Assembly: GCA_016987375.1 (NCBI GenBank)
Contig: PJRA01000005.1
Span: 269,205-286,295, forward strand
Source of the DNA: Brachionus koreanus
Taxonomy: Eukaryota; Rotifera; Eurotatoria; Ploima; Brachionidae
Reading direction: 5' to 3'
DNA length: 17,091 nucleotides
Of the stretch, positions 3,117-17,091 are shown piece by piece; positions within the stretch are counted from its first letter, which is position 1, and every line of letters starts with the position of its first letter. Position numbers and translations under genes: made by a program. The notes under the pieces are model-generated. The model was not told the DNA's origin, made no database searches, and saw only the letters and a list, made by a program, of their open reading frames with translations.

Positions 3117-3121
3117 ATTTA

Positions 3122-3685
<564 letters not shown>

Positions 3686-6736: not shown

Positions 6737-7993
6737 CCAGACTCTCCCAGTCGGGCCCAAGGCCCTCCTTCCATAAATTTAAACTTTTCTTTTTTTGTTT
6801 TTATGTTTGGACTTTTATTTTGCTTTAATATTGAATATTTTTATTAAATTAAAATATTTTAGGAAATAACAGAAGAGTTTATGGTAAACGCCTAATTTTT
6901 TTTTCTTATTTTCTAAAAAGTTTAGATTTTATTCTTAAATTTTTAAATATTTATTAAATTTCTTTTTAAAAACCTTATTTTCATCTCTTCAAACATTTCT
7001 TTTAATTTAAATTATATAAAAATTTCCTTTTTTTAATTGTAACACGGGCATCCTTAAAATTGCAAGCAATTTTAAGTCTGCCCTTATATTTTATTTATTA
7101 AATCCTAAAAACTTAGATGCAGCTTCGCTGCTGAACACAGTGCTCGCCTGCGGCTCGCAAATTTTGGCCCAAAGTTTTTTATCATAGCTCGGCTTCGCCT
7201 CGCCTAGTGTTTTATTTTAATTTCTAAGCTCACTCGGCTTCGCCTCGCTCGCCGTGTTTAATAAATTTAATGGAATTTTTTATTTTTTTCCATTTTGTTT
7301 AAAGGTTTTGACTAAGTTAAAGTTTAATCTTAATTTATAGTGGTTTTTTACAATTTTTGCAGAGAAAAGGCAACCAAACTGTCTATAATATGTTCAGGTA
7401 GATTTCGCTTAATGCAAGCTATCGAATGATACCCAATTTTTCCTATTTAAATTACTTTTGAGTAAGATAAAACTCTTAAAAAACACAATTGCAAAAATTA
7501 GCAACTTTAAGGCTTCATAGAAGATCAAAAAAGATACCAATTATCAAAAGTAAACATATATTTAGATAGATCTCGTCGAGATCTGCAAAATGATACCCAT
7601 TATGTCCAAATCGGTGACAATTTTTTTTTCAAACTTGATTTTTTGGGCCTTTTTAGCCCTTTTTCACCCTTAATTTAAAGGCATAAGACAAAACAAATGA
7701 CACCACGTTTTGTTTGGCAACATTACCTACATAACGGTATACAACATGTCCGTGAAAAACCCGTTTGAAAAAATCACATTTTCCGCCATTTTGACCGAAA
7801 AAAAAGACAATTTTTGGACGCTCATAGTTCAGCGAGGAATACATAAATGTATCGTTACTCAAGTGCGGGCACCCCTTTGGTCTCTTCTCTTTCATTAAAG
7901 ACCGTTTTTGTGTGATGAGGACGCGCGGACGCATAGATCCTGTCTGTATACGAAAGGTCCATTTTTGTTTCTTGTCAATTTAAATAAGTATAA
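6737..7993. repeat. Tandem array unit 1 (1257 bp)
   Basis: Begins CCAGACTCTCCCAGTCGGGC and ends in AAATAAGTATA before the next copy. In order it holds GACT/AGTC and GGGCC/GGCCC hairpins (6740-6765), a 38-nt hairpin (7046-7083), GCAGC-TTC-GCTGC (7119-7131), three GC hairpins with TC/TC internal loops (7141-7159, 7187-7203, 7233-7247), and two TGATACCCA sites (7427 and 7591). The second site is preceded by AGATCTCGTCGAGATCT (7568-7584). Positions 6861-7630 are almost identical to unit 3 at a constant offset of 2652. Frames open on both strands near 7650-7930 are judged non-coding. Confidence 0.93.
7046..7083. repeat. Invariant 38-nt hairpin of the array units (first copy)
   Basis: GGGCA pairs with TGCCC outside and CTTAAAATTGC with GCAATTTTAAG inside, separated by a TC/TC internal loop and closed by AA. 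The same 38 nt occur without change at 8301-8338, 9698-9735 and 10956-10993, although flanking sequence has diverged, most clearly in unit 2. Confidence 0.9.
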
Positions 7994-9407
7994 CCAGACT
8001 CTCCCAGTCGGGCCCAAGGCCCTCCTTCCATAAATTTAAACTTGTCTTTTTTTGTTTTTAAATTAGGACTTTTATTTTGCTTTAATATTGAATATTTTTA
8101 TTAAATTAAAATATTTTAGGAAATAACAGAAGAGTTTATGGTAAACGCCTAATTTTTTTTTCTTATTATCTCAAAAGTTAAAGGATTCTTAATTATTTAA
8201 ATATTTATTTAATTTTTTTTTAAAGAGCCTTATTTACATCTCTCCTAACATTTCTTTTTATTTTAATGATATAGAATTTAACCTTTTTGAATTGTTATAC
8301 GGGCATCCTTAAAATTGCAAGCAATTTTAAGTCTGCCCTATATGTAATATTCATTCTTTAATAGAAGAGAAAAAATGTTTTTTTGGATTCTTTTTTGATT
8401 TATTTAGAATTAAAGGAAATCTTTTTTTTCTAAAATCTAATTGATTATCTTTTTTAATATTAACTACAAAGTTTTATAATTTAAAATTTAAATTTATAAT
8501 TTTTAAATTCCGAATAGATGCAGCTTCGCTGCATTAACGATGCTCGCCTTTGGCTCGCAGTGATGGCCCTCAGGTACCGCTCGTTTTTGTCGAAGCTCGG
8601 CTTCGCCTCGCTTCGAATTCTCTTTTATTTTTCTTTATTTGTTGAGATAATATTTTGATAGATTGGTGCATACTCAGTTTAACCTCTTTTTTTCATATTT
8701 TACTTTCTAACATAAAAAAAATTGAGGAAAAAAAGCTTAATTTCAAATTTGAAATCGTTTTCTTACATTTTATTACTAAAAAAGCTTACTTGAAAATTTT
8801 TATCCTAAAAATGGCTTTTTTTCTGCATAATTATGTGTCAATGACTATTGATCAAGTCAAAAAGTATTTTAATTTGTAGATCTCATTGAGACCTATCGAT
8901 CGATACCCAATTTTACCATTTTATTTGCTAAATGGCTCATAAATATTTTACCAAAGTAGCCGTTCCTCGAAAAGTCAACTTTAAGACCTGACAAAAAACT
9001 AAAATGATACCCATTATGTCTCAATTGGTGACAATTTTTTTTTTAAAGTTGATTTTTTGGGCCTTTTTAGCCCTTTTTCACCCTTAATTTAAAGGCGTAA
9101 GACAAAAAAATTCACACCACGTTTTGTTTGGTAAAATTACCTACAAAACGGTATATAACATGTGCGGGAAAAACCCGTTTGAAAAAATCACATTTTCCAC
9201 CATTTTGACCGAAAAAAAAGACAATTTTTGGACGCTCATAGATCAGCGAGGAATACATAAATGTATCGTTACTCAGTTGCGGGCACCCCTTCGGTCTCTT
9301 CTCTTTCATTTAAGACCGATTTTGTGTGCTTACGATGCGCGGACGCATAGATCCTGTCTGTATACGAAAGGTCCATTTTTGTTTCTTGTCAATTTAAATA
9401 AGTATAA
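7994..9407. repeat. Tandem array unit 2 (1414 bp)
   Basis: Same start, 38-nt hairpin (8301-8338) and hairpin order as unit 1, but the middle (about 8340-8520 and 8620-8880) is diverged. The hairpin at 8541-8559 keeps its stems but has a TTT loop. The one at 8590-8616 has a longer outer stem, TCGAAGC with GCTTCGA. The third TC/TC hairpin is absent. The two GATACCCA sites (8902 and 9006) are only about 104 bp apart, against 164-165 in the other units. Positions 9001-9309 match unit 4 almost perfectly at an offset of 2630, whereas the last 100 bp match unit 3. Confidence 0.92.
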
Positions 9408-10645
9408 CCAGACTCTCCCAGTCGGGCCCAAGGCCCTCCTTCCATAAATTTAAACTTTAATTTTTTTGTTTTTAAATTTGGACTGAATATTTTTTTTAAA
9501 TTAAAATATTTTAGGAAATAACAGAAGAGTTTATGGTAAACGCCTAATTTTTTTTTCTTATTTTCTAAAAAGTTTAGATTTTATTCTTAAATTTTTAAAT
9601 ATTTATTAAATTTCTTTTTAAAAACCTTATTTTCATCTCTTCAAACATTTCTTTTAATTTAAATTATATAAAAATTTCCTTTTTTTAATTGTAACACGGG
9701 CATCCTTAAAATTGCAAGCAATTTTAAGTCTGCCCTTATATTTTATTTATTAAATCCTAAAAACTTAGATGCAGCTTCGCTGCTGAACACAGTGCTCGCC
9801 TGCGGCTCGCAAATTTTGGCCCAAAGTTTTTTATCATAGCTCGGCTTCGCCTCGCCTAGTGTTTTATTTTAATTTCTAAGCTCACTCGGCTTCGCCTCGC
9901 TCGCCGTGTTTAATAAATTTAATGGAATTTTTTATTTTTTTCCATTTTGTTTAAAGGTTTTGACTAAGTTAAAGTTTAATCTTAATTTATAGTGGTTTTT
10001 TACAATTTTTGCAGAGAAAAGGCAACCAAACTGTCTATAATATGTTCAGGTAGATTTCGCTTAATGCAAGCTATCGAATGATACCCAATTTTTCCTATTT
10101 AAATTACTTTTGAGTAAGATAAGACTCTTAAAAAACACAATTCCAAAAATTAGCAACTTTAAGGCTTCATAGAAGATCAAAAAAGATACCAATTATCAAA
10201 AGTAAACATATATTTAGATAGATCTCGTCGAGATCTGCAAAATGATACCCATTATGTCCAAATCGGTGACAATTTTTTTTTCAAAGTTCATTTTTTTGGC
10301 CTTTAAACCCCTTTTTCCCACTCTTTTAAAAGTCATAAGACAAAACTTATGTCACCACGTTTTGTTTGGCATCATTACCTACAAAATGGTATACATATTG
10401 TCCAAGTAACACCTTTCTGAAAAAATCACATTTTCAGCCATTTTGACCGAAAAATAAGACAATTTTTAAACGCTCATAGTTAAGCAAAGAATACATAAAT
10501 GTATCGTTACTCAGTTGCGGGCACCCCTTCGGTCCTTCCTCTTTAATTCAAGACCGATTTTGTGTGCTTACGATGCGCGGACGCATAGATCCTGTCTGTA
10601 TACGAAAGGTCCATTTTTGTTTCTTGTCAATTTAAATAAGTATAA
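9408..10645. repeat. Tandem array unit 3 (1238 bp)
   Basis: A near copy of unit 1 from 9513 to about 10282, differing there at only a few bases. It carries a roughly 19-bp deletion just before that block. Hairpins lie at 9698-9735, 9771-9783, 9793-9811, 9839-9855 and 9885-9899, and TGATACCCA sites at 10079 and 10243. After about 10285 it diverges from unit 1, and its last 100 bp match unit 2. Confidence 0.93.
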
Positions 10646-12036
10646 CCAGACTCTCCCAGTCGGGCCCAAGGCCCTCCTTCCATAAATTTAAACTTGTCTT
10701 TTTTTGTTTTTAAATTAGGACTTTTATTTTGCTTTAATATTGAATATTTTTATTAAATTAAAATATTTTAGGAAATAACAGAAGAGTTTATGGTAAACGC
10801 TTAATTTTTTTTTCTTATTTTCTAAAAATTTTAAATTTTATTCTTAAATTTTTAAATATTTATTGAATTTTTTTTTAAAAACCTTATTTTCATCTCTTCA
10901 AACATTTCTTTTAATTTAAATGATATAAAAATTTACTTTTTTTGAATTTTTATACGGGCATCCTTAAAATTGCAAGCAATTTTAAGTCTGCCCTTATATT
11001 TTATTTCTTAAATCCTGAAAACTTAGATGCAGCTTCGCTGCTGAACACAGTGCTCGCCTCCGGCTCGCAAATGTTGGCCCAAAGTTTTACATAAGAGCTC
11101 GGCTTCGCCTCGCTTTATATTTCATTTGTTCACTCGGCTGCGCCTCGCTTACATTTTTTATTATTTTTTTGAGATTTTGAATTCAATATTTAACGAAAAA
11201 ATTCTAATTCTTTTTTTTTGTCAACTTTCAGTATTAATAAATAAGGTATCGAAAGTTTTTTAACTAAACCTAATATATCATTTTATAGATCTTACAATTT
11301 TGAATATTTTTTAGAAAAAATATTTATTTATTTGATATTTGGTTTGAAGAATAAAAAATTTTAAAGTTTGAGTCTATTTTATGTGGTTTTTCACAATTAT
11401 TTTTAAAATAAGACAATTTTAAAGTCTACATTAGGTGTCATTGGATTCCGCTCATCCAGAGCTATCGATTGATACCCGATTTGTATCATTTGGTTACTCT
11501 TTTGACTGACATTAGGCTCACAAAAAACACGATTCCTAAAAAAGTCAACTTTGAGTGCAAATATAAAATCAATGCATGTACTAAATATCAAAAGCATACA
11601 CATATTCAGATAGCTGACGTCAAGACCTACAAAATGATACCCATTATGTCTCAATTGGTGACAATTTTTTTTTTAAAGTTGATTTTTTGGGCCTTTTTAG
11701 CCCTTTTTCACCCTTAATTTAAAGGCGTAAGACAAAAAAATTCACACCACGTTTTGTTTGGTAAAATTACCTACAAAACGGTATATAACATGTGCGGGAA
11801 AAACCCGTTTGAAAAAATCACATTTTCCACCATTTTGACCGAAAAAAAAGACAATTTCTGGACGCTCATAGATCAGCGAGGAATACATAAATGTATCGTT
11901 ACTCAGTTGCGGGCACCCCTTCGGTCTCTTCTCTTTCATTAAAGACCGTTTTTGTGTGATGAGGACGCGCGGACGCATAGATCCTGTCTGTATACGAAAG
12001 GTCTATTTTTGTTTCTTGTCAATTTAAATAAGTATA
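10646..12036. repeat. Tandem array unit 4 (1391 bp), right end of array
   Basis: The start and 38-nt hairpin (10956-10993) match the other units. Later hairpins are at 11029-11041, 11051-11069 (loop TCC), 11097-11113 and 11133-11147 (loop TGC). Positions 11150-11400 are private to this unit. From 11631 to about 11939 it is almost identical to unit 2. The final 95 bp instead carry the unit 1 version (GTGATGAGGACGCGCGGACG). The array stops after AGTATA and is followed by simple AT sequence. Confidence 0.92.
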
Positions 12037-13400
12037 ATTAAATAATTAATTAATTATAAAATTTATTTTCAATTAATTAAAATTCTTTTATCTTTTTTAT
12101 ACAAGAATTAAAAAATTACTTTGTTTTTTTTTAATTAAACTAAATTTATTTTCTATTGTTTATTTTAAAAAATAGTTTAAATTTTTCAAATCAAACAATT
12201 AATTTTTATTTTAAAAAAAATAATTGATTATTATTAAAAAACTTAAATTATTTTCAAAAAACTTAAATTTACATATAAATCAGACTTGTTTTTAAATCAA
12301 AAAAATTTTAAGTCATTGACTTGATTTGACTTAAGAACTATGACTAAAAAACTAGTCTGAGATAAATAATAAAAAAAGGTGAAACTTTTTCCTAGCCTAT
12401 TTTGTGAAAATCTGTATAATAAGTGACATAATGAAAATGATCTGTTTAAACAAAAATTTCTTGATTTTTGGTTAGTAATTAGCGAATAAATGTTATTGTA
12501 AATCTAGAAAAAAATTGATTGATTTAATTTTTAAAAAAAGGTTCGGTTAGCAAAAATAAAATAAAAAAGTAAAAGATTCAAAAAATAATTTTTAATTGAA
12601 TCAAAATACCGATCAATTATTTTAAAGTTTAAATTAACGTATTTTCACAAAGACACTCTTTTAATTAGCTTTAAACTCCCTTTGTTAATAAAACTATGAG
12701 AAATGCAATATTTGAACTTAAAAACTCCGTCTTTGTCTATAAATCAGAACTGAAGTTGCAAAATTAAGTTTACAATTTAATTAATCTATAACAAATGTAT
12801 AATTAAGCGACCTTCGATACATATTTCTTTTTATATTTCTCCCTTATTAATTCCTTCTTTTTCAGAACCTATCAACAACTTAATATGTTACCAGTGTCAT
12901 TTATAATCTAATATTTTTTAATTTTCTTCTTTCTACATTGTAATTATATTTAAATGAAAAAATAATGATTTTTTAAGAAAATTTCGCCAACAATTTTATT
13001 AACACTGATTATAATTTTGTTATCTTATTTTCAGAAAAAATGATAGTCTGTCAAGTTTTTCGTGTTCATACCTATAAAACTTAAGTTAGATTTAAACTGA
13101 AGAAAATTTCTTTATTCGAATTGTAATGAAAAAGTAATGATTTTTTAAGGAAATTTTCTCTAATTTAAATGCCTTTCTTCAACTGACCTCATTTATCTTA
13201 AAGAGAACTACACGAGCTTTCTATCAATGTGTTTAATTAGTTTAGTTTTAAATATATTTGAAATAATTTTTATTTATTTATTAAGTTTTTTCAAACAAAA
13301 GAATCATTAAATTTTTTTTCCGACGAATATACTTTGTCTTCATTGTTTAACCTTTGAATAAAAAAAAATAAATTTTAAATTTAAATTTTTTTAAAAAAAG
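12037..13400. other. AT-rich non-coding stretch; may hide upstream exons of the TLDc gene
   Basis: Mostly simple AT sequence. Two splice-acceptor-like sites are seen (CTTTTTCAG near 12866 and TTATTTTCAG near 13034), but no exon with a convincing product follows either. A 31-bp direct repeat (12954-12984 and 13126-13156, two differences) lies here. The start codon of the plus-strand gene at 13401 should be in this stretch or further left. Confidence 0.45.
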
Positions 13401-15094
13401 AATATTCAAAATTCACAAACAAAAATAGAAAGACCTGTAATTTCAAATCCTAAAGGTAGGATTAAATAAAATTAGGCAATGTGAATTTTGGAACCAAAAA
13501 ACTAAAAAAAAATTTTTAAAATTAAATTACTTTTTTAATTTGACTTAAAAACATGTTCGGCTGATACATAGTTTGTGTCACTTAAATTTAAAATGTGCAA
13601 AACCTCTGCAACTCTGCAAAATATTATATTCATAGAGAATATATCAAAATTACATTGCAGAGTCTTTGCACACTTCTGTTCTGGATGATATTTGCTATTT
13701 ATCAAATGATACAATTTGCAGAATAAGCTTAACAGTCAAACTAACAAAGATATTTCAATTTTTTCTGCTTGTTGTTCCAAAACTCACATTGCCATAATTT
13801 TAGGTATTTAATTTTAATTAAATTTTAGAATACATAAGCTCGACTATTTTGACTGAAAATGAGCTTATAGATTTGATTAATCAAATCAAATTTAGAGATC
13901 AAAAATGGTATCTTAAGTATAGAGGCAGTCGTGATGGATTTAAGTCTGAAAATTTTCACAATAAATGTGATGGCTTATCGAATACTCTAACAGTTATACA
14001 AACCGAGAATAAAGCCGTATTTGGAGGATACACAGGTGCATGTTGGTCTAAAGATGGGGGATTTGTTGAAGATCAATATTCGTTACTGTTCAGCTACTAC
14101 AACTCACTGAATAAAAAGCTTATATTTGAATGCAATCGATCTCTAGAGGCAATTTATTGTGAGCCGAATAGTGGCCCTTCGTTTGGCTACAATGATTTAT
14201 TCATTGCAAATGAGTGTAATAACAATTTGGACAGTTCTTGCCATATCGGATACAGCTACTTCAACACAATCAATTCATACAATTCAGAAGAATCGAGAAC
14301 ATTTTTAACTGGATCAGCTAATTTTAAGGTTACTGAGATTGAAGTTTACACTAAAGTGTGTGAGAAATTTTCTCAAGTAAATTCTCAAAAAATAATTTTA
14401 AAAATTAAATTTTTTTTTTTTAATTTTTTTAGGAGAAAATGAAAGCATTGTGTGAAAAAACTGGAAAAAATTTAAAAGAAATCGAAGAAATATACGATGC
14501 TTATAATGTATGTGTTAAAAAATTTTGCTTTAAAAAAAAATAAATTTTTTTAAGGCTGTTGCAATAAACGGACAAATAAAATTGGATTTATTTGTATCAT
14601 TTTTGATACGCAAAAATCAAAACATCGAAACAGAAAAAGAACTGAAAGAAATGGAAAATATACTTAAGTTTGTATTTGAATATTTTGATGAAGGTATATT
14701 CAAAAATAATTTTTTTTTAAATAAAAATTTTACAATTAAAAAAAAGACAAAAGTGGACATTTGGATTTTTTTGAATTTATCGAATGTTACTTTATATTTG
14801 AAGCTAAAAATAGAAAAAAATGCCAAAAAGCTATTCTTGAGTAAATTTTATTTTGGAAAATGTTTTGTTTCAATTTTAGTTTTTCTATTTTTAAGATTTT
14901 TGTTCGATTTGGCTGATGAAGATAAGAGTCAGAACCTTGAAATTGAGGAAATAAATGTTCTTTTGAAAAAATTCCCCAACATCCTTAATAGAAATAATTT
15001 TGCATCACATCTAAGGGACAAAGTTAATTTGAGCACAAGCAAAATATTAACAAGAAATGAATTTTGTGAACTATTAGATTTGTTATTTTCATAG
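13401..15094 (+). CDS. TLDc-domain protein with two C-terminal EF-hands, multi-exon, 5' end missing
   Basis: Proposed coding exons are 13401-13455, 13829-14376, 14433-14507, 14555-14693, 14747-14840 and 14896-15094; all junctions keep the frame and give 369 residues. The second exon is a TLDc domain: WYLKYRGSRDGFKSENFHNK, then NTLTVIQ, VFGGYTGACW, EAIYCEPNSGPSFGYNDLFI, and LTGSANFKVTEIEVYTK at the end. A charged helical linker follows. Two EF-hand loops come next, DEDKSGHLDFFE (built across the 14693/14747 junction) and DEDKSQNLEIEE, then a helical tail ending LLDLLFS. TLDc proteins are linked to oxidative-stress protection and V-ATPase binding; the EF-hands suggest calcium control, which is inference. 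No in-frame ATG precedes the TLDc core, so an upstream exon is needed. The first listed exon (18 codons) is the least certain. Introns are 47-56 bp apart from the MITE-bearing 373-bp one. Confidence 0.85.
13475..13793. mobile_element. 319-bp MITE with 22-bp terminal inverted repeats, inside an intron
   Basis: The left end GGCAATGTGAATTTTGGAAC and the right end (13772-13793) are inverted copies matching at 20 of 22 positions. A second inner pair, 13594-13611 and 13655-13672, matches at 16 of 18. There is no coding capacity, so it would depend on a transposase from elsewhere. No clean target-site duplication is visible (ATTA on the left, ATAA on the right), so the superfamily is not assigned. 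It lies inside the proposed first intron of the TLDc gene. Confidence 0.8.
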
Positions 15095-15935: not shown

Positions 15936-17091
15936 AGTATAGTATAGTATAGTCTAGGGGTTTATTGCAACGCATAAATGCGTAAAATCTGACAACAGAT
16001 TATGTGCAAAAAATATTATGACGGTTTTTGTCTATTTTTGCTTTAAAAATATCGCAAGATTGAGCATCCACTGCATCAACTTCCAGCTTATTCCAGCCAT
16101 TTACTACACGGTTTGTGAAGAAGTGGTATCGTTGGGCACAATTTTTGATTATTTCTCTTTTAATTTTGTATGGCCTCATGTACTTCTGCTTGAAAAAGTT
16201 AGTGGAGATTGCCATTTCACGTGATCAATATTTCTTTTAGCATTAAACATTTGAATTAAGTCACCTCTCATTCGCCTTCCGGTCAAATTCATTAGATTTA
16301 GAGCCTTTAGTCTATCGTTGTAGTTTAGATCTCTAAAACCAGAAATGGCACGAGTAGCTCTTCGTTGAACAGCCTCTTGAATTCTCTTATCTTTCTCTAA
16401 GTATGGGCACCATACTGGAATAGCATACTCTAAGTGAGGTCTTACAAGACTGGTATAAAGTAATTTAATGACCGTCTGTGTCCGAAATTTAAAACCATGA
16501 AGAACTTGCCCAAGTATTCTGTAGCCTTTTGAGGCTGCTGAACAAACTTGCGAATGCCATTTTAAATCGTTTTGAATCCAGATTCCTAGGTATTTCTGGA
16601 TCCGAGATCTAGAGACAATATGAGTTTTTCCATTGGCTAAATCATTCATAATAAATTCATATAGGAGCCCTTGATTTCGATTAAAACTCATAATCTCGCA
16701 TTTATCAAAATTTAGATCCATAGACCATTCATTACACCAGCTAATTAATGAGTCAATATCATCTTGAAGTAACTTAAATGATTCATGCGGATTGTTTCGA
16801 TCGATAATACAGAATATCTTGCAGTTGTGTTTTTTAGTCTGTTTGGCAAATCATTAATAAAAATTGTGAAGAGCAACGGACCGAGGACAGAGCCTTGTGG
16901 TACACCACTAGTCACATTAAGCCATTAAGAAACGATTCAATCCATTTTAATAACATTCCGTCAATACCAAGTCGTTTAAGTTTAAATAAAAGTTTTGAGT
17001 GATTCACTCTATCGAAGGCTTTAGAGAAATCTGTATAGAGTACATCCACTTGTTTGCCTAAAGATATTTGATGTGTCAAAAAATCAAGACT
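15936..17091 (-). mobile_element. 3' part of a non-LTR retrotransposon (jockey/CR1-L2-like), runs off the right edge
   Basis: The element lies on the minus strand with its 5' part outside the window. Its coding remnant is followed by a 3' UTR of about 50-65 nt with two hairpins: TCTG/CAGA, and ACGCA/TGCGT (15970-15983). Then comes a tail of three ACTAT repeats (15936-15950 on the plus strand as AGTAT, followed by AGTCT). Short tandem-repeat tails and 3' stem-loops are known in CR1-like and other non-LTR clades. The left boundary is set by the last repeat. Confidence 0.85.
16000..17091 (-). pseudogene. Reverse transcriptase and C-terminal domain of the non-LTR element, inactivated
   Basis: The visible part starts within the RT palm: YTDFSKAFDRV (motif A, catalytic Asp) in the block 17091-16924, then TSGVPQGSVLGPLLF (motif B) in another frame, 16924 to about 16832. 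A third frame runs from about 16829 to 16176 with NCKIF, WSMDLNFDKCE, KYLGIWIQNDLKW and LVRPHLEYAIPVW. NCKIF is followed directly by CIIDRNN, so the FADD catalytic motif expected there is deleted. A further deletion removes the segment between FLN and WLNVTSG. Near the end TGA (16176-16178) stands where this family usually has an arginine codon, and a frameshift leads to the last block (16170-16000) with HFFTNRVVNGWNKLE. The gene would have encoded an endonuclease/reverse transcriptase for target-primed copying; this copy cannot act. Confidence 0.9.

Follow-up and report, generated by a model that had tools for sequence, protein, structure and literature searches.

A 17,091-nucleotide (nt) stretch of the Brachionus koreanus genome (contig PJRA01000005.1, positions 269,205 to 286,295; hereafter the window) contains, at 6737–12037, four tandem copies of a non-autonomous rolling-circle transposon of the Helitron superfamily. 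The element carries a real, well-conserved, and strand-specific module of short hairpins, most of them interrupted by the same tandem GA/GA internal loop, which lies on the minus strand. A previous sequence-only reading of this DNA had described the hairpins and the tandem array; its four units stand, but their nature as a transposon had gone unrecognized. For the function of the module we infer, tentatively and at slightly less than even confidence, that the hairpins may be a single-stranded-DNA signal acting in cis during the rolling-circle cycle of the element.

The units run in the minus-strand direction with zero spacer between neighbors: unit 1 at 6737–7993 (1257 bp), unit 2 at 7994–9407 (1414 bp), unit 3 at 9408–10645 (1238 bp), and unit 4 at 10646–12037 (1392 bp), the boundaries being set by unit alignment. 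The 83 Mb eukaryotic assembly (92 contigs) returned at least 45 matches to the array region, pieces counted in, which makes the array a member of a dispersed repeat family and rules out a plain local satellite. On contig C11, one unit stops at L018:538 and a second element begins directly with the identical terminal sequence. This second element holds three long minus-strand open reading frames (ORFs), encoding a PIF1 helicase (Pfam, 123.4 bits, E 1.3e-35), a Helitron_like_N Rep protein (203.9 bits, E 3.5e-60), and a third product without a Pfam match; the Pfam scan found no endonuclease domain in any of the three. The Rep ORF is 83–87% identical to three unnamed proteins (P0121–P0123), with 36–59% identity in the other matches among the best 120 of 3636, and PF14214 has six matches in the genome. 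Because this related copy carries Rep and helicase on the minus strand, the same strand as GA/GA, the window units are assigned as non-autonomous rolling-circle relatives with the minus strand as sense, and the GA/GA loops thus lie on the sense strand of the element. The minus-strand placement given by the sequence-only reading is thereby borne out. No ORF exceeds 107 amino acids in the window units or 119 in a copy on C29, and the hairpins are kept in both despite the lack of a long ORF, which fits a role in cis. The units are mosaic, with 1 and 3 almost the same mid-unit, 2 and 4 almost the same near the sense 5′ end, and other parts differing, a pattern that suggests exchange between units. 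Relatives in viral contigs were sought and none was confirmed.

Membership in the Helitron superfamily follows from the Rep (HUH) and PIF1-type helicase of the related copy and from a 3′ palindrome shortly before a CTRR motif. In unit 1 the 3′ terminus (6737–6769, minus strand) comprises a 5-bp GC palindrome, 12 nt, and CTGG, and the other units end likewise at 7994, 9408, and 10646; the same arrangement was present in 8/8 family-A 3′ ends examined, the palindrome stem of L017 having one changed base. Two related 3′ ends (C46 and C20) share GAGTCTTGT instead, at a provisional boundary. The 5′ end of unit 1, at 7964–7993 (minus strand), begins TTATACTTATTTAAATTGACAAG, and all eight 5′ ends examined start with TTATA rather than the canonical TC, for which reason we do not class the element with the canonical Helitrons (Helitron1). 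Outside arrays, the 5′ neighbor is A at 4/4 non-tandem ends and the 3′ neighbor is T at three of four non-tandem family-A ends; it is G at the window array, whose outer 5′ end is 12037. Four array junctions are exact, three in the window (7993/7994, 9407/9408, and 10645/10646) and one on C11.

Compared with canonical Helitrons such as Helraiser of bats, the element is alike in the Rep and helicase of its related copy, in the placement of CTRR (CTGG) after the palindrome, perhaps in the mostly A (5′) and T (3′) neighbors, and in its exact head-to-tail junctions, which resemble the circle junctions described in the cited part of PMC4778049. It differs in its 5′ end and in its extra internal GA/GA hairpins, as the same part of PMC4778049 speaks of one 3′-end hairpin. 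With Helentrons/HINE/DINE-1 and Helitron2 it shares the rolling-circle mode, non-autonomous copies, and a 3′ palindrome. For that group, the relevant section of PMC4067079 describes palindromic subterminal repeats, and Helitron2 with palindromes on both ends. The present element differs in ending with CTGG, in the internal position of its GA/GA hairpins, and in its lack of subterminal inverted repeats of 12–15 bp: in four copies, the outer 150 nt of the two ends share no inverted match above 8 nt (exact matches only). A second, divergent Helitron family was observed at C1:558500-568800 (L043, L039, and L044), with 35–60% identity in the tblastx pieces shown.

Five hairpin types have the GA/GA loop, namely the terminal palindrome T, a 38-nt hairpin, and hairpins B, C, and D. 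All lie on the minus strand. The 38-nt hairpin, with CTTG as its sense-strand tip, occupies 7046–7083, 8301–8338, 9698–9735, and 10956–10993. Hairpin B is found at 7141–7159, 8541–8559, 9793–9811, and 11051–11069; hairpin C at 7187–7203, 8590–8616 (with an outer stem of 7 bp), 9839–9855, and 11096–11114; and hairpin D at 7233–7247, 9885–9899, and 11133–11147, being absent from unit 2. Hairpin E (GCAGC-GAA-GCTGC, minus strand, 7119–7131 in unit 1) shares the cluster and has no internal loop. In each copy the cluster sits approximately 750–1000 nt from the 5′ end, with the 38-nt hairpin separate from it and T at the 3′ terminus. A counting script that required identical dinucleotides on the two sides of the internal loop, a GC fraction of at least 0.4, and an outer stem of at least 1 bp returned 19 TC/TC hairpins (GA/GA on the minus strand), or 5, 4, 5, and 5 in units 1–4. 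Because the outer stem of T is only 2 bp in the window units (1 bp by eye in the C46 and C20 ends), T was not counted as a firm GA/GA hairpin; setting the four terminal palindromes aside leaves 15 (four 38-nt hairpins, four B, four C, and three D). This reproduces the count of 15 given by the sequence-only reading, whose examples at 7141–7159, 7187–7203, and 8590–8616 are TC/TC hairpins precisely as written.

An equal frequency in shuffled sequence would have spoken against the earlier proposal, and the motif is far rarer there: 500 dinucleotide shuffles per unit gave mean counts of 0.026, 0.014, 0.010, and 0.008 with a maximum of 2, and the observed count was reached in 0/500 for every unit. 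When all 16 identical-dinucleotide loops were enumerated in the window at a GC fraction of at least 0.55, TC gave 16 rows (12 places, as the four terminal palindromes can be read two ways) and the other fifteen gave none. Across the window and the loci examined with it (186,534 bases, with some overlap), GC-rich or long-stemmed rows numbered 29 for TC, 3 each for AT and TA, 2 each for GC and GA, and 1 each for AA and CA, the two GA rows belonging to the same element family in reversed copies.

How far these hairpins are independent of one another bears on the earlier argument that one loop in unrelated stems is hard to explain by duplication alone. In unit 1, B and C agree at 14/17 bases, the three differences being both partners of one base pair and the central base of the loop. 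The simplest reading of these sequences makes B, C, and D paralogues whose stems are only partly unrelated, and duplication accordingly accounts for much of the repetition. The 38-nt hairpin differs from B, C, and D in sequence and has the same loop.

Two pattern searches indicate that, for this stem core, the GA/GA design belongs to the transposon and not to the genome at large. Pattern CGAGSCNNNGSCGAG matched 32 places, 30 with complementary stems, compared with 3 for the reversed control. Eleven of the 30 hairpin matches come from the window. In all, 28 sit at loci that resemble the element beyond the hairpin, a resemblance found on C2 and C28 approximately 160–430 bp away from it, and the remaining two occur in a single relic on C9 in which the module alone can be recognized. 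A free-standing mobile palindrome is disfavored by this distribution. Pattern GCNNGSCNNNGSCNNGC, in which the flanking pairs are free, matched 36 places (reversed control, 9). Of these, 20 are GA/GA hairpins in the element family, one is a B hairpin on C9 that has decayed, and 15 are elsewhere. Seven of these 15 have complementary inner stems, in seven different flanks, and none has GA/GA. The two patterns thus found no GA/GA hairpin of this core outside the element family.

The hairpins are conserved far above the spacers between them. In a module alignment of 12 copies, from which the main figures use 10 (loci C9 and C8:2357 kb excluded), identity per compared base was 0.91 for D, 0.95 for C, 0.93 for B, and 0.97 for E, versus 0.59, 0.57, and 0.68 for the D–C, C–B, and B–E spacers; the alignment is anchored on these same hairpins, and the spacer values may be somewhat depressed as a result. 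All 12 copies gave 0.90–0.93 for hairpins and 0.55–0.65 for spacers. Within B, the GA positions were identical in 0.96 of comparisons (253/264) and the tip loop in 0.65; the corresponding values for D, which was found in 5/12 aligned rows, were 1.00 (40/40) and 0.50. In B and D alike, GA is as well kept as the stem. Sense-strand tip loops among the 30 matches, which are related and non-independent copies, were GNA in 22 (GAA 15, GCA 5, GGA 2), AAA in 6, and ACA and GCT in 1 each, and GNA tips occur in most copies of B, C, D, and E. In full-length pairwise alignments, other windows, chiefly the element ends, were often conserved as well as the hairpins. One of these eight alignments, that of unit 4 against unit 2, put E, B, and C in the wrong place, and none of the eight enters the main figures; the other low rows are, as far as seen, hairpins missing from the second copy.

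Covariation was assessed on 20 intact copies (14 distinct), drawn from 6/11 B and 14/19 C/D matches with decayed copies excluded. Paired cells amounted to 91.7%, compared with 81.3% in shuffles, and the covariation score was 0.317 compared with 0.165, neither value being reached in 500 shuffles; nine cells had changed on both sides, versus 5.5 in shuffles (as many in 5/500). A swapped pair distinguishes B from C/D with the stem preserved. Selection for a fold, as the sequence-only reading had suggested, is in keeping with these figures and with the contrast to the spacers, with the reservation that the hairpins are not all independent.

The stems can form on both strands. With DNA parameters, the full hairpin was predicted for the 7-bp version at 8590–8616 (z score −2.15) and for the 38-nt hairpin at 7046–7083 (z score −5.26). 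GA/GA and GNA loops, as they stand on the sense strand, are the stabilizing versions, which work through sheared G·A pairs, for which work by Chou and others in 1997 is said to be a source. During transposition, the sense strand would be peeled off as single-stranded DNA, and the sites could then adopt compact hairpin folds held shut by sheared G·A pairs at the tandem GA in the stem, with tips that are mostly GNA or CTTG. The folded hairpins might be bound by the RepHel protein of the element or by a host replication protein, and would provide the circle with a cis-acting signal for loading, pausing, or starting the second strand.

A number of observations weigh against this proposal. Over a stretch of 10.3 kb, partly gap and without identified ends, the divergent family on C1 has no GA/GA hairpin, and four other Rep loci (3.2–3.5 kb each) likewise have no such hairpin; a design common to all Helitrons of the genome is unsupported. 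The 38-nt hairpin was not found in the Rep-bearing C11 copy, the 5′ end of which falls in an assembly gap starting at L018:9127. Hairpin C shows no contrast of GA over loop, with 0.90 at the GA positions versus 0.93 in the tip loop, and the outer stem of the D hairpins is poor. Stems or GA positions are broken and uncompensated in B on C9 and C11d and in C on C16 and C8:2357 kb, a sign that the sequence-only reading had itself named as refuting; these copies look like decayed relics. The covariation test drew on intact copies only, its two pairs changed on both sides were matched by 488/500 shuffles and its five further pair types by 246/500, and most of the signal is the paralogue difference between B and C/D, which may be a single ancestral event.

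The folding predictions add to these difficulties. Hairpin B (7141–7159) was predicted to form its full DNA fold, no better than shuffles (z score −0.18), and for 7187–7203 only the inner 3-bp stem was predicted (−1.6 kcal/mol, z score 0.16). The terminal palindrome also forms only its inner stem, without GA/GA, and the two strands of the 7-bp version are nearly equal as DNA (−8.6 and −8.2 kcal/mol). Py-GA-Pu is the best setting for sheared pairs in DNA, and the GA of the 38-nt hairpin sits instead between a purine and a pyrimidine. RNA folding favored the sense over the antisense strand in all four hairpins tested, by 2.1–2.8 kcal/mol (−5.4 versus −3.3 kcal/mol for 7187–7203), so that RNA fits at least as well, and the DNA and RNA predictions together do not settle between the two.

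This strand preference is one reason to consider that the hairpins act in RNA, as part of the 5′ leader or of an intron in the Rep transcript, where they would control its stability, splicing, or translation, the non-autonomous copies having inherited the 5′ region. In the C11 copy the module indeed lies upstream of Rep (L018:8420-8600), and GA/GA shares its strand with the Rep ORFs. We consider an RNA role unlikely, although far from negligible, since B and C are kept equally well in copies without Rep, a retention that favors a cis role on DNA. GNA triloops are, moreover, specially stable in DNA. Rfam gave no family at gathering score (three matches at E up to 10 each fell below their own cut-offs), and a known RNA family is accordingly rejected. 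The hairpins might also have no selected function, if a chance palindrome was duplicated in an ancestor and its conserved look came from the differing evolution of a GC-rich palindrome and AT-rich spacers, or from young, gene-converted copies. The duplicate-like B, C, and D, the extra C hairpin in each of two C11 copies, the exchange suggested by the mosaic units, the broken copies, and a varying hairpin number (D is missing from unit 2, and C does not occur in the parts of C46 and C11d that were aligned) would all suit such a history. We nevertheless judge it improbable, as B and D keep their GA and stems while changing at the tip, the swapped pair preserves the stem, and the spacers are strongly diverged.

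That the hairpins are spare terminators, 3′-palindrome-like sites that make the RepHel helicase pause and can let the transposed copy end early, with short derivatives as the result, appears very improbable. The idea draws on the role of the 3′ palindrome as the Helitron terminator in transposition, during which transposon circles form (both in the cited part of PMC4778049), on the GA/GA that flanks the family-A 3′ palindrome, and on a CTAA (a CTRR) 2 nt past hairpin E in three of four units. Against it, CTRR occurs within 20 nt downstream of 0/15 internal window hairpins with GA/GA, hairpin E lacks that loop, and the outer stem of T is as short as described above.

A more specific form of the single-stranded-DNA proposal is that the cluster might be a single-strand origin, its sheared-G·A hairpins recruiting the machinery that makes the Helitron circle double-stranded, a design that would have evolved convergently at Streptomyces telomeres and in the hairpin promoters of N4; we regard this version as a long shot. 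Streptomyces telomere hairpins have GNA or CTTG caps and sheared pairing (PMC7205883, in the part cited), and the element likewise has several short hairpins with both GNA and CTTG tips. They belong to bacterial chromosome or plasmid ends, the cited part of PMC7205883 makes no mention of a tandem GA/GA stem loop, and the likeness is in form. The early promoter hairpins of coliphage N4 are also short DNA hairpins; their loop has 3 nt and includes a sheared G:A pair, and they are stabilized on one strand and protein-bound (PMC4496689, in the part cited). They differ in being phage promoters, and here too the likeness is in form, with no relation claimed. In the open-access literature, as far as its accessible portions extend, we found no earlier report of GA/GA hairpins in Helitrons.

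The surroundings of the array include a 185-amino-acid ORF at 3119–3676 (minus strand), which we take to be calmodulin-like; a piece of a TLDc domain protein at 13849–14442 (plus strand; Pfam TLD, E 4.4e-25); and, at 16176–16721 (minus strand), a fragment that matches reverse transcriptase proteins, best among the few named matches in Brachionus calyciflorus, and has no Pfam family. Elsewhere in the genome, L028:4563-4621 forms a perfect inverted repeat whose 27-bp arms enclose a 5-nt loop. Adjoining the C11 Helitron cluster, L017:3540-5839 holds three similar consecutive ORFs, the middle one of which matches peroxiredoxins, with no clear named match in the protein search.

Helitrons move gene fragments. 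A 2016 account describes their single-stranded circle as only "possibly converted" to double strands (PMC4778049, in the part cited), and the hairpin module offers a concrete place to test this step. If the proposed role is true, DNA hairpins with G·A pairing, known from bacterial telomeres and a phage, would be extended to a eukaryotic transposon.

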